This document shows positions 8,562 to 55,911 of a stretch of DNA of 64,000 nt, one piece after another; within the stretch, counting starts at the first letter, position 1, and every line of letters begins with the position of its first letter. Origin of the DNA: Candidatus Omnitrophota bacterium (GTDB lineage: Bacteria > Hinthialibacterota > Hinthialibacteria > Hinthialibacterales > JAKPRU01). The position numbers and the translations under genes are program-made. The notes beneath the pieces were generated by a model. The model saw nothing but the letters and a program-made list of their open reading frames with translations, was not told where the DNA came from and made no database searches. The stretch is taken from assembly GCA_029570205.1 (NCBI GenBank), contig JAKQSI010000090.1, positions 52,504 to 116,503 on the forward strand, read 5' to 3'.

Positions 8562-8608
8562 ATTCAACCCTCTGTGTGTCTCCCCTGATTTTTGGGGGAG
8601 AGGATTTG
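8562..8608. repeat. Family C hairpin repeat
   Basis: AACCCTCTGTGTGTCTCCCC followed by a gap and a GGGGGAGA arm. The same unit is inside hpnE (53023-53067, opposite orientation), and a half copy is at 52533-52560. Here it lies just before the helicase start, so it may influence that gene. Confidence 0.6.
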
Positions 8609-24379: not shown

Positions 24380-24416
24380 ACGATTTTCTCTACCTCTTTG
24401 GTTTTTGCTTCCGTCC

Positions 24417-24473
24417 GCTCCTCCCAAGAAAGCTCGGTCATCGACAGGCAGGGACGCCTGTCCCACCAGTGGG
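24417..24473 (-). repeat. Family F composite repeat, partial extra copy
   Basis: 57 bases identical to 24552-24608, 135 bases apart. Contains CAGGCAGGGACGCCTG, an internal palindrome, followed by TCCCACCAGTGGG. This copy holds only one end of the composite element. Confidence 0.85.
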
Positions 24474-24551
24474 AGCGAAGTATGGCAATCTCATCGTTGG
24501 AGCATGTAAACCTGAGATCGCTATGTCGCAGCGCGTCGCAGACTCCGGGCT

Positions 24552-24694
24552 GCTCCTCCCAAGAAAGCTCGGTCATCGACAGGCAGGGACGCCTGTCCCA
24601 CCAGTGGGCCAGGCGTCCCTGCCTGGCAAAGAACGGCGGGAAGCACGCTTTCTTTCCCAAATCACCGCCCCCGCCGGTGCGCCGCTCGCAAGAA
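24552..24694 (-). repeat. Family F composite repeat, full copy
   Basis: Read on the minus strand: TTCTTGCGAGC, a GC-rich stretch, CTTCCCGCC, GCCAGGCAGGGACGCCTGG, CTGGTGGGACAGGC, then CGAGCTTTCTTGGGAGGAGC. The same order of blocks is found on the plus strand at 51278-51484. Not coding. Together with 24417-24473 it fills most of the 366-base panC-creD gap. Confidence 0.8.
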
Positions 24695-28067: not shown

Positions 28068-28105
28068 AGGAAAAATTCGCCTTATCTTAATCTCCAATTC
28101 ATGCC

Positions 28106-28168
28106 CGGATTCCGGATTTCGCCGGAATGACGGTTATTCCCACGGGCAACCACGGGGGATTGCCCCTG
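28106..28168. repeat. Family A and Family E repeats back to back
   Basis: 28106-28132 is an inverted-orientation Family A unit (ATTCCGG ... CCGGAATGACGG). It is followed at 28138-28168 by a GGGCAACCACGGGGGATTGCCC unit like those at 34552. They fill the divergent gap between the parvulin gene and trxB. Confidence 0.6.
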
Positions 28169-37105: not shown

Positions 37106-37148
37106 CCCTCTTCTCCCTCTCCCTTTGAGATAGGATTGGGGTGAGGGT
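37106..37148. repeat. Family D repeat (CTCCCTCTCCC...GGTGAGGG type)
   Basis: CCCTCTTCTCCCTCTCCC, a short centre, and GGATTGGGGTGAGGG. It lies in the divergent gap upstream of the cation transporter and makes an upstream GTG start at 37141 unlikely. Confidence 0.55.
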
Positions 37149-37173
37149 TCTTGCAGCACAACAGAGTTTTCTC

Positions 37174-39130: not shown

Positions 39131-39243
39131 CCCTCTCTCACCGCAACCCTCTTCCGGCGGGAGAGAGAGAAAAGATTTCGTCGAATGCAGGGGCAATTCA
39201 CGAATTGCCCCTGCATTCATTCCGGTAAAGGCCGGAATCCAGG
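39131..39243. repeat. Cluster of Family D, perfect hairpin and Family A repeats
   Basis: 39131-39170 is a Family D variant. 39183-39218 is a perfect 17-bp stem with a 2-base loop (GAATGCAGGGGCAATTC and its complement). 39219-39243 is a Family A unit directly abutting it. They separate convergent kdsB and rhodanese genes and may act as bidirectional terminators, though no long T-run is seen. Confidence 0.75.
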
Positions 39244-39275
39244 CTATTGTGTCGTCGTGCGGCAAAATCCCAACG

Positions 39276-41599: not shown

Positions 41600-41800
41600 G
41601 GGGATTGCGGATTGTGAACGGTGGGGCAGGCCTCTGCGCCTGCCTGGTCACGCATCCTGTGGGATCTTGTCCCCTCTCCCTCCGGGAGAGGGTCAGGGTG
41701 AGGGGCTTCCGGGTAGCTGATAACTGTTCCATTTGTGCTATCGCCGCGCCCTGTCCTCTCCGTCCATTCTTCTTCTCTTCAATCCGCAATCCACAACCCG
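41600..41800. repeat. Repeat-rich gap: nested inverted repeats including a clean Family D hairpin
   Basis: 41672-41680 and 41684-41692 form CCCTCTCCC / GGGAGAGGG followed by TCAGGGTGAGGGG (Family D). Around it, GGATTGCGGATTG near 41600 is inverted at CAATCCGCAATCC near 41779. A GGGGCAGGCCTCTGCGCCTGCC unit is at ~41623. No gene seen. Confidence 0.65.
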
Positions 41801-51277: not shown

Positions 51278-51484
51278 TTCTTGCGAGCATCCCTCCGGTA
51301 GGACCGGGGATTGGGATGAGGAAAGCGGACTTCCCGCCCTTTTTTGCCAGGCAGAGACGCCTGGCCTACTGGATAGCTACCAGGCAGAGACGCCTGGCCT
51401 ACTGGATAGCTACCAGGCAGAGACGCCTGGCGCGCTGGTGGGACAGGCCTCCGTGCCTTTCGATGGGCGAGTTTTCTGAGGAGT
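51278..51484 (+). repeat. Family F composite repeat with internal tandem 33-mers
   Basis: Starts TTCTTGCGAGC as at 24694 (minus). At 51348-51380, 51381-51413 and 51414-51435 the unit beginning CCAGGCAGAGACGCCTGG is repeated (33, 33 and ~22 bases). It then continues CTGGTGGGACAGGC to TTTTCTGAGGAG, paralleling the 24.5-kb copy. It fills the 325-base gap between the PfkB and response-regulator genes; no gene there. Confidence 0.82.
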
Positions 51485-52689: not shown

Positions 52690-54069
52690 TTACAATGTCC
52701 CCTGCAACATGACCCTTTTTGCCGACATTTCCACACTTCTGCATCCGCTCTCCAGTGTGCAGGGCAATCCGGTTGCTGTCCAATCCCCGGCAAGATAAAG
52801 ACCTTTCAGCCATTGCCCCGGTTCCGGCCGAAACGGTTCCATGTTCGGATAAGGCGCATAAGTAGCCCTGCGCTGCCTGGAGACAGACGCTTTTAATACC
52901 CTCGCGCTCCTCGTCATCGGGAACAGACCTCTCACATCCTCCATGGCAAGCCGCACCAACTCCTCTTTGGAGCATTCATTCAAAACGCTCGGCCCGCTGA
53001 TCAAGAGCGAATAGCACCCCCCGGACTTCTCCCCCAATCTTGGGGGAGACATAGAGGGGGTTGCTCCCAAATGCTTCCGATTATCAAACAACCATTGAAA
53101 TCGCCTGCTTTCGAGATGGATAAAATGCTCATCGGTAATCTCGCAATCAAGCCATAAGTTCAGCGTGAGAATGGGCGATGGCTCGAATCTCCTGATGTTC
53201 TCAACCGGCGGAGACCGGCTCAGGTCGCTTCGTTTCAACAGAGCGAGCAAATCCCACGGGGCTATTGTCGAGACGACCGCATTCGCCTCGATTCGCTGTC
53301 CCGTCGAGAGAACCGCGCCGGTTACCTGTTCGTTGCCCGACCGCAGGCTTTCTACATTTACGCGAGTGAGAACCCGACCTCCGTGCGATTCGATAAACTG
53401 ACGCGCGTCAGTATCGCACAAACTCCCGGTTCCGCCGGTTACCCATCCGAGTGACGAGTCTGCACACGACCGGCAGAATGCCTCCACCAGCACATTTGCC
53501 ATCAACTTGGCGGATCCTTTTTCAAGAGGCAGGTTGAGAGCGGCCTCGCAAAGCGGCTGCCACAGGGTCCGGCAGATTTCTGGTGTCTGTCCGCATCGTC
53601 TCAGCCACACCCAGGCGGTCTCACTGTCAAGAGGGTCCGCCCCGAACCATTTTCGGCGCAGCAATTCCGGCCCGATCCGAAGCCCCGATAATCGATCCCA
53701 CACGGAGAGTCGAGAGAATCGCATCAACGCAGCGGCGACATGCAGCGGGGCAGGGAACCGGGGGCAGGCAAAGCGCCATGTCCGTTCCGATGAAACACGG
53801 AACGACATGGACAGATCATTCTGAAATCGCAGTCTCTCTGTTCCGCCGATTTTATCGGCAAATCGACGAAAGGAGGAATAGCATCCCATCAGCAGGTGCG
53901 GTCCCAGCTCCAGAAGGTCGCCTGTCTGCGGTTCTTGCAGCACAGCAGCCCGCCCGCCCAGATGGCCTGCACGCTCCACAAGGGTCACCTCCGTGCCGCG
54001 CTCTGCAAAAATCGCGGCCAGATAGCACCCGGAGACTCCCCCGCCGATGATTAGTATGCGTTTCGCCAT
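52690..54069 (-). CDS. hpnE: Hydroxysqualene dehydroxylase, with repeat inserted in frame
   Basis: 459 aa FAD enzyme of the squalene branch: converts hydroxysqualene to squalene. FAD motif ILIIGGGVSGCYLAAIFAERG, LVERAGHLGGRA, ELGPHLLMG, SLGWVTGGTGSLCDTDA and the ending LKGLYLAGDWTATGLPCTLESGCRSVEMSA are typical. Translation starts 19 bases before the end of hpnD. Around residues 333-349 (HLGATPSMSPPRLGEKSGG) the sequence is encoded by a Family C repeat (53023-53067) not found in normal family members. It does not break the frame; whether it harms folding is unknown. Confidence 0.9.
   Translation of the reverse strand: MAKRILIIGGGVSGCYLAAIFAERGTEVTLVERAGHLGGRAAVLQEPQTGDLLELGPHLLMGCYSSFRRFADKIGGTERLRFQNDLSMSFRVSSERTWRFACPRFPAPLHVAAALMRFSRLSVWDRLSGLRIGPELLRRKWFGADPLDSETAWVWLRRCGQTPEICRTLWQPLCEAALNLPLEKGSAKLMANVLVEAFCRSCADSSLGWVTGGTGSLCDTDARQFIESHGGRVLTRVNVESLRSGNEQVTGAVLSTGQRIEANAVVSTIAPWDLLALLKRSDLSRSPPVENIRRFEPSPILTLNLWLDCEITDEHFIHLESRRFQWLFDNRKHLGATPSMSPPRLGEKSGGCYSLLISGPSVLNECSKEELVRLAMEDVRGLFPMTRSARVLKASVSRQRRATYAPYPNMEPFRPEPGQWLKGLYLAGDWTATGLPCTLESGCRSVEMSAKRVMLQGTL
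53023..53067 (-). repeat. Family C hairpin repeat inside hpnE
   Basis: TCTCCCCCAA (53028-53037) and TTGGGGGAGA (53040-53049) flank a 2-base loop, followed by CATAGAGGGGGTTGC. On the minus strand it reads like 8562-8608, including AACCCCCTCTATGTC. It is in frame within hpnE. Confidence 0.8.
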
Positions 54070-54920
54070 AGCGCGGATGGAAAATACCGGGAGGCCAGCC
54101 AGTCACGGAACGCAATGGAGAGCTTTTCCCAGGTTGGAATAGTGATTCGTTCGGCGAATACGGAGAAATCCTTTTCCGCAATCCTCGCCAGAATCCGACG
54201 GTAAATCGTTCCCATAATCTGTGCAGGGAACATCTGCGGGTCCGCCATCTCCCGCGCGCATTCCGAGGCACGCCGGTAGAAATCCAGCGCCCGATGATAC
54301 TGCTTCTCAAACAGAAGCCGCATTGGGGGACTTGGACGTTTCTGCAAAATCTCTTCTTCTGTTACACCGAACTGGTCCAAATCCTCCAGGGGCAGATAAA
54401 TACGGTTTCGGTCTGCATCTTTGCCGACATCTCGCAGGATGTTGGTCAGCTGAAGTGCAATTCCCAAGTCCCTCGCAAAATCCTTCGCACGCGCATCCCT
54501 GTACCCGAAAATCTCGATCGAGATCAGGCCCACTACGGATGCCACACGGTGACAGTACGGAAGAAGGTCATGGAAAGTAGGATACCGGCCACACCGGACA
54601 TCCATTTCCACACCGGCGATCAGTTCCTCAAAATACTCTCGCGGGATGGGGAATTGTTTCAGCGTGTTTTGAAGGTCCCTGGTGACAGGATGGCTGGGAT
54701 TCCCACTGAATAGATTGCCGATTTCATTGCGCCACGCAGCGATCCTCTGTTCCGCATCCGCCTCGTTGTCCGCTTCGTCCACCGCATCATCCACAAACCG
54801 GCAGAACGCATAGACAGAATAAATCGCCTCCCGTTTCAATTTCGGAAGAAAGCGAAGAGCGTAATAAAAATTGCTTTTGCTCTTCCGGGTATGGACTGCG
54901 CTGTAGGTATTATTGGCCAT
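54051..54920 (-). CDS. hpnD: Presqualene diphosphate synthase
   Basis: 289 aa from 54920 (MANNTYSAV), 11 bases inside the end of hpnC. Trans-isoprenyl synthase fold with first aspartate motif DDAVDE (44-49), and second ILRDVGKDADRNRIYLP (~165). It condenses two farnesyl diphosphates to presqualene diphosphate. The neighbouring hpnC and hpnE products continue to squalene, the precursor of hopanoids. No frame disruption or repeat insertion seen. Confidence 0.93.
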   Translation of the reverse strand: MANNTYSAVHTRKSKSNFYYALRFLPKLKREAIYSVYAFCRFVDDAVDEADNEADAEQRIAAWRNEIGNLFSGNPSHPVTRDLQNTLKQFPIPREYFEELIAGVEMDVRCGRYPTFHDLLPYCHRVASVVGLISIEIFGYRDARAKDFARDLGIALQLTNILRDVGKDADRNRIYLPLEDLDQFGVTEEEILQKRPSPPMRLLFEKQYHRALDFYRRASECAREMADPQMFPAQIMGTIYRRILARIAEKDFSVFAERITIPTWEKLSIAFRDWLASRYFPSALWRNAY

Positions 54921-55911
54921 TGTTTTTGAGACTGTGGTCAATTGTTTTCCGAAACCGGATCATCCGCGCGAAAATCGAGGGCATATCTCTCCATCCAAGA
55001 GTCGGGCGGCAGGAAAACGGTTCGGTTCGCTTCTCTACCTTCTCCAGAATCCGCATTCCGCCCAGCCACACCGCCCGAATTTCCCAGCTCAGACATCCCC
55101 GGACCAGTGCGGGAAGCCGCGCGCCTTCAAGGAACATCCGTCGCGTTCGATCCACCAATTCCCGGTGCAGGGACCGGAAATTTGGACTGTCGATTTTCCG
55201 CACAAACTCGTCTTCGGTATACCCGTGTTTCTTCATCAACTCTTGTGGAGCATAAATGCGCCCTTTCTCCAAGTCCACGGAGATATCCTGCCAGAAATTG
55301 GTCAGCTGAAGCGCTGTGCAGATGCAGTCGGACAGAGCGAAAAGCGATTCCTCCCGGTACCCGAAGAGGCACAAAATCAACCGGCCCACCGGATTAGCGG
55401 AGAATCGGCAATAATCATTCAGCAGACCCTCCCATGTCTCGTATCGCTGAACTGTCACATCCCGCCGAAACGCCGTAATCAAATCCCGAAATAATTGCAC
55501 CGGAAGATCATACTCCCGAATCGTATGCTTCAAAGCAAGGAAAACAGGATTTAAACACGATTCTTCCTCAAAAATCTCCCTCCCCATACTTGGGGAGGGC
55601 TGCGGTGGGGATTTTAATACCTCTTTGTCCTCACCCCCCGGTCCCCCTCTCCAAGTATGGCGAGAGGGGGAAGAGCCGCCACACCTTTCCAGTTGTTCCT
55701 GCCAGGCGTCCAGCCGCTTGAGACGTTCATCGGGGGCGATGTCTCCTTCATCTGCGAAATCATCCGCCCCACGCGCAAACGCATAGATACTCGCCACCGC
55801 ACGGCGCATATTCCGGGGGACCAGAAACGATGCCACCGGAAAATTCTCGTAATGCCCCCGGACGATGCGCAAACAATGGCGATATGCGGCCTCAATTTCA
55901 CCATCCATCAT
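54910..55911 (-). CDS. hpnC: Hydroxysqualene synthase, with two repeats inserted in frame
   Basis: 333 aa from 55911 or 55908 (GGAGGGAGA upstream); a longer frame to 56013 has no support. The synthase fold is clear: YENFPVASFLVPRNMR, aspartate motif GADDFADEGD (48-57), RRDVTVQRYETWEGLLNDYCRFSANPVGRL, TNFWQDISVDLEKGRIY. It converts presqualene diphosphate to hydroxysqualene. Residues ~77-117 (GGSSPSRHTWRGGPGG onward) are encoded by two Family D-like repeats at 55571-55670; family members normally run straight from the RLDAWQEQLERC segment to NPVFLALKHT. First gene of the hpnC-hpnD-hpnE operon. Confidence 0.9.
   Translation of the reverse strand: MMDGEIEAAYRHCLRIVRGHYENFPVASFLVPRNMRRAVASIYAFARGADDFADEGDIAPDERLKRLDAWQEQLERCGGSSPSRHTWRGGPGGEDKEVLKSPPQPSPSMGREIFEEESCLNPVFLALKHTIREYDLPVQLFRDLITAFRRDVTVQRYETWEGLLNDYCRFSANPVGRLILCLFGYREESLFALSDCICTALQLTNFWQDISVDLEKGRIYAPQELMKKHGYTEDEFVRKIDSPNFRSLHRELVDRTRRMFLEGARLPALVRGCLSWEIRAVWLGGMRILEKVEKRTEPFSCRPTLGWRDMPSIFARMIRFRKTIDHSLKNNGQ
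55571..55670 (-). repeat. Two hairpin repeats inside hpnC
   Basis: Unit 1: CCCTCCCCA (55578-55586), loop TACT, TGGGGAGGG (55591-55599). Unit 2: CCCCCTCTC (55643-55651), 10-base loop, GAGAGGGGG (55662-55670). Unit 1 has CCATACTT and unit 2 AAGTATGG, so the two lie in inverted orientation. Both are in frame with hpnC. Confidence 0.82.

Follow-up and report, generated by a model that had tools for sequence, protein, structure and literature searches.

In-frame palindromic repeats in hpnC and other genes of an uncultured bacterial genus

Translated palindromes are best known from Rickettsia. The palindromic elements inserted in Rickettsia genes (RPEs) are short repeats that lie in frame in many unrelated genes as well as elsewhere in the genome, and the host protein tolerates them (reviewed in PMC10969869). 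They are reported to be mostly ~150 bp long and to occur remarkably often in genes; RPE-4 and RPE-6 are treated in PMC3733652. The latter study (Di Nocera et al. 2013) also describes intragenic REP monomers and dimers, the dimers being common, in Opitutus terrae, Rickettsia conorii, Thauera and others, where they strike tRNA synthetase and repair genes, and its authors propose that REPs in loops and linkers are neutral. REPIN/RAYT elements (e.g. PMC3116915) are hairpins with distinctive ends, often arranged as inverted pairs and mainly intergenic. The coding palindromes of Nematomorpha mitochondria (PMC6649704) resemble the case described here in being inverted repeats inside protein coding genes, and differ from it in belonging to animal mitochondrial genes and in being perfect and as long as 284 bp.

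Here we extend translated palindromes to an uncultured lineage, one member of which is labelled Candidatus Omnitrophota. The window that we analysed is a stretch of 64,000 nucleotides from one draft genome (G000), and the comparisons use the rest of that genome and two congeners (G001 and G002), so that three related species offer matching genes, sites and elements for comparison and make the phenomenon testable. In the window, hpnC has hpnD and hpnE as neighbours, and the features of interest are the following:

54910..55911, minus strand: hpnC, squalene synthase HpnC, 333 aa, ATG at 55911; carries the insertion
55555..55677, minus strand: inserted codons, HpnC residues about 79-119; exact edges uncertain
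55625..55675, minus strand: X hairpin unit, hairpin CCCCCTCTCGCCATACTTGGAGAGGGGG followed by tail ACCGGGGGGTGAGGA
55574..55610, plus strand: Y hairpin unit, hairpin CCCTCCCCATACTTGGGGAGGG (55578-55599) followed by tail CTGCGGTGGGG
52690..54069, minus strand: hpnE, hydroxysqualene dehydroxylase, the second in-frame case of the operon
53016..53061, minus strand: Z-type hairpin unit within hpnE, in frame (...TPSMSPPRLGEKSGGC...)

The initial annotation of this DNA proposed that hpnC carries two hairpin units which keep the frame and add about 40 residues. We found both units, which are GC-rich, and the reading frame is open throughout them. The protein scores 292.9 bits against the TIGR03464 profile, above the cut-off, and retains its catalytic aspartates. 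Its fold matches that of the solved HpnC 4hd1 (TMt 0.88), relative to which it has ~37-40 extra residues at positions ~79-119. The AlphaFold model has a mean pLDDT of 88.9 over the whole protein and ~48-54 for residues 81-120, which are without secondary structure and lie between helices 60-78 and 122-134, in agreement with the loop placement first suggested. In the model the insert is a disordered loop, which the enzyme appears to tolerate. Because the frame is open, we infer that the inserted peptide is actually present in the HpnC protein. The segment is not conserved across HpnC homologs: among ~90 that we aligned, only that of a congener has it. In the sister family, which belongs to the same order (L035-L039, L041), HpnC lacks the insert and makes a short turn at the site, and HpnC of other phyla has either a short turn or unrelated extra residues.

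The units were also said to resemble repeats found elsewhere in this genome, and they do. The X half of the hpnC insert matches ~20 other genomic places, tail included (best E 6.6e-11), and an X covariance model of 18 members, built with the hpnC copy included, finds ~24-30 strong copies in the genome. For the Y hairpin we counted 24 exact copies of the pattern where the reversed control gave 1, and for the Z type, found in hpnE, 22 where it gave 0. One could instead read the segment as an ordinary lineage-specific expansion of an HpnC loop that resembles the repeats by chance in a GC-rich genome, given that the length of this loop is generally variable and that several Acidobacteria carry unrelated extra residues there. 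The many genomic matches of X with its tail, the Y and Z counts far above the reversed controls, and the recurrence of the same kinds of unit in unrelated genes leave this reading hardly any credibility. The copy counts and reversed-pattern controls rule out chance GC-rich similarity as such.

Inside hpnC the tail of Y faces the tail of X, the two units have the identical loop CCATACTTGG, and their 31-nt arms are 77% complementary to each other. Because the loops are equal and the arms complementary, X and Y probably entered hpnC as one tail-to-tail dimer of ~100 bp rather than as the two insertions first envisaged; two independent events are the less likely history. Elsewhere in the genome, Y and Z are often paired, with matching loops and in inverted orientation as in REPINs, and X copies are mostly single.

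With 35-50 bp, many copies and a mostly intergenic location, the short hairpin repeats X, Y and Z agree with the general definition of REP-like elements (20-50 bp). In the REP superfamilies a short stem ends in an unpaired tag, GTAG or CGTC (or TGTC/CCTC). GTAG and CGTC are absent from the consensus tails of X, Y and Z, which are CCGGGGGGTGAGGA, CCGGGGTGGGGTT and TACAGAGGGGGTTGA respectively; the reverse complement of X contains CCTC, but ~10 unpaired bases away from the stem. Judged by these consensus sequences, the three families fall outside the GTAG/CGTC scheme, and in this they differ from the tagged intragenic REPs of Di Nocera et al. Rfam returned sub-threshold matches to plant and animal miRNA models only, which we do not find credible. 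Literature searches with the repeat sequences gave unrelated papers only, and a search on Omnitrophota and palindromic repeats brought up nothing pertinent. At E<=1e-5 the X model has 38 and 26 hits in two congeners, and in the sister family it has 0, 0, 1, 0, 0 and 0 hits over six genomes; in its modelled form the X family is limited to the genus. Of 290 genomes, 68 contain a broader motif, CCTCACCCC-n-CCCTCTCC, for which the control gave hardly any hits; repeats of this general type are therefore widespread.

Other palindromes occur in the window as well. More Z-like ones, together with others of the CCTCTCCC...GGGTGAGGG type, are located at 8579-8601, 37116-37150 and 41673-41710. Another dispersed repeat, GGAATGACGG / CCGTCATTCCGGCGGAAGCCGGAATCCAGG, is located at 23-58, 28103-28133 and 39212-39247, and elsewhere in the genome it also adjoins several X copies.

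The initial annotation expected the hpnC insertion in this genome only. Instead, G001 and G002 both have it at the same site. The G001 protein is 81% identical to that of G000 and its hpnC region is that of Candidatus Omnitrophota bacterium isolate USCA_maxbin.089 in GenBank (L052); the G002 hpnC contig stops inside the repeat. We found no empty hpnC site, the site being filled in all congeners. Because the same site is filled in the congeners, the insertion is ancestral to the three species, older than their split, and not an artefact of a single assembly; an assembly chimera is ruled out by an insert common to separate genomes of three species.

We consider it very probable that a non-autonomous, REP-like palindromic dimer entered hpnC in frame in the ancestor of the genus, gave rise to the segment and has been tolerated since. 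The X/Y dimer would have inserted tail to tail into hpnC of the common ancestor, and selection presumably purges those insertions that break frames or folds. The survivors would be those in exposed loops, in turns between helices and in linkers between domains, where they would be translated as disordered Gly/Pro/Ser-rich peptides with little constraint on their amino acids. Units of the X, Y and Z kinds would have entered about ten other genes in the same way, with intergenic copies commoner. Such elements work like RPEs or intragenic REPs, and the phenomenon itself is already known. The parallel with RPEs drawn at the outset is thus supported as a mode of action, which is all that we compare: X, Y and Z, like RPEs, are present in frame in several unrelated conserved genes, but they belong to another lineage and are 35-50 bp hairpins, single or paired and mainly intergenic. 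In relation to Di Nocera et al., the orthologous comparison over three congeners is new here.

Mobility of the repeats was a further proposal. In its favor are the lineage-specific spread and the presence or absence of copies at intergenic sites, and on the other side none of X, Y and Z has a transposase linked to it. In the comparison of intergenic sites between congeners (12/13 flank sets), X is present in G000 and G002 and missing from G001 at two sites (L179, L189), and the X of L002 is also missing from G001. Another difference is seen at L162, where G000 and G002 have a Y pair and G001 has a different palindrome (L283), a REP of the GGAG type that belongs to the L032 RAYT family. No clean junction or target duplication was read at these presence/absence sites. 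The differences support gain or loss since divergence and not a mechanism; a transposition step and an enzyme for it would have to be assumed.

G000 has three Y1/RAYT-like genes (L030, L031, L032), each with its own distinct palindrome family: CACCGTTTCAACGGTG, the GTAG-tagged GGACAGGCCTCCGTGCCTGTC and the GGAG-tagged GCGGGAGCGTCAGCTCCCGC. In these draft genomes X, Y and Z flank none of the three genes and neither of the two Y1 matches in G002, and no Y1 transposase was detected in the draft of G001. We therefore rejected the Y1/RAYT genes as mobilisers of X, Y and Z, and in this respect the elements differ from REPIN/RAYT systems. At 24408-24635 and 51278-51483 of the window, AGGCAGAGACGCCTG-type palindromes form arrays, both tandem and inverted. 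This type flanks the Y1 gene of L031 as well as its G002 relative (L290), and the arrays look like REPs of the L031 RAYT.

A similar entry into hpnE had been noted, and the Z element there is in frame; the G001 ortholog has 24 additional in-frame bases within the hairpin loop. We found ~10 further genes with X, Y or Z in open frames, including HypF, MutL, ProS, a DUF115-like protein, several glycosyltransferase/membrane proteins and an isomerase-epimerase fusion, where names other than those of hpnC, hpnD and hpnE were read from sequence and not from profile searches, and genes around the copies were called with a simple codon-usage model. The units are depleted from genes and commoner in intergenic DNA, about 13 of 70 being genic as compared with a coding fraction of 0.863 in the window. 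Z is more often genic than X plus Y (9/22 vs 4/48, Fisher p 0.002). The Z consensus has nearly no stops in all six frames, and a six-frame reading of the Y pair shows stops in three of its lines, as expected if survival in a gene needs an open frame.

In the congeners the frames of the orthologs are open, and in nearly all of them the corresponding site holds an insert derived from repeats; the sister-family HypF, L157 and L167 proteins lack the inserts. The number or type of units at a given site varies among congeners in HypF, L145, MutL and L157. For example, where HypF of G000 and G002 has Z, that of G001 has two CCTCACCCC-type units as an inverted pair; for L145, G000 has Z and the G001 ortholog a Y-type hairpin.

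The inserted peptides look tolerated rather than selected, and nearly unconstrained. Over nine genes, dN/dS of the inserts is 0.83 to G001 and 0.65 to G002, compared with 0.14 and 0.21 for the host parts, and in hpnC alone, to G001, it is 0.92 for the insert and 0.12 for the host part. Unexpectedly, the same codons combine this relaxed selection on the protein with strict conservation of the DNA. Between G000 and G001, hairpin cores within the inserts differ at 8.6% of sites (31/359, few sites, with cores chosen for their canonical look in G000 and L145 excluded since its congener carries another unit), as compared with 37% for spacers of the same inserts and 44% for host synonymous sites. The core changes are spread evenly over codon positions (0.099, 0.083, 0.076), and 8 are synonymous and 23 are not. 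The pattern is unchanged when hpnE (4/35) and L170 (3/38) are added. Low, codon-even divergence of the cores implies therefore either constraint on the DNA or RNA, or cores that are refreshed from the genomic pool. It counts against the explanation by an ancestral, tolerated dimer insofar as an insertion decaying purely neutrally would not be expected to show it.

The first of these two possibilities is that the genic hairpins are functional DNA or RNA elements, such as an mRNA hairpin or a protein-binding site, under nucleic-acid selection and not mere passengers. It accounts for the contrast of cores with spacers and synonymous sites and for the even spread over codon positions, and the ProS hairpin still pairs in G001, where GTAAAC has become GCGAGC. 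A required function, on the other hand, would forbid the differences in unit number and type that congeners show in HypF, L145, MutL and L157. A function linked to the host gene is also unnecessary, since orthologous intergenic X cores behave alike (13/170 and 4/95 differences); homogenisation from the genomic pool would give an identical pattern, and the cores were chosen for their canonical look in G000. We regard this possibility as unlikely.

The second is that gene conversion, or further insertions into the same sites, refreshed the orthologous copies, in which case the hairpins now in hpnC would be younger than the original insertion. Core divergence is as high to the nearer G002 (8.7%) as to G001, despite a roughly threefold difference in host dS (0.20 vs 0.66), and both the HypF linker and one intergenic site hold different families depending on the species. 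Against refreshment, the spacers within the inserts are alignable and have diverged as old shared sequence should, and orthologous X cores, at about 4-8%, are closer than random paralogs within the genome, which differ by 14.8% on average. We think refreshment possible, somewhat on the doubtful side.

A broader proposal seems to us close to an even call, slightly on the doubtful side: coding hairpin cores would be kept at the DNA level, by pool homogenisation or by selection on the hairpin, and translated as nearly unconstrained peptide, so that copies embedded in genes would still be live members of their repeat families and elements of several families would land repeatedly in certain protein linkers.

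In L200 570-2282 (G000:C120), L239 and L240, sugar-isomerase-like and ribulose-phosphate 3-epimerase-like domains share one open frame, and in all three congeners the linker between them consists of X and other palindromes. This suggests that repeats built the joint of the isomerase-epimerase fusion, and it points to a route by which repeats may build protein linkers.
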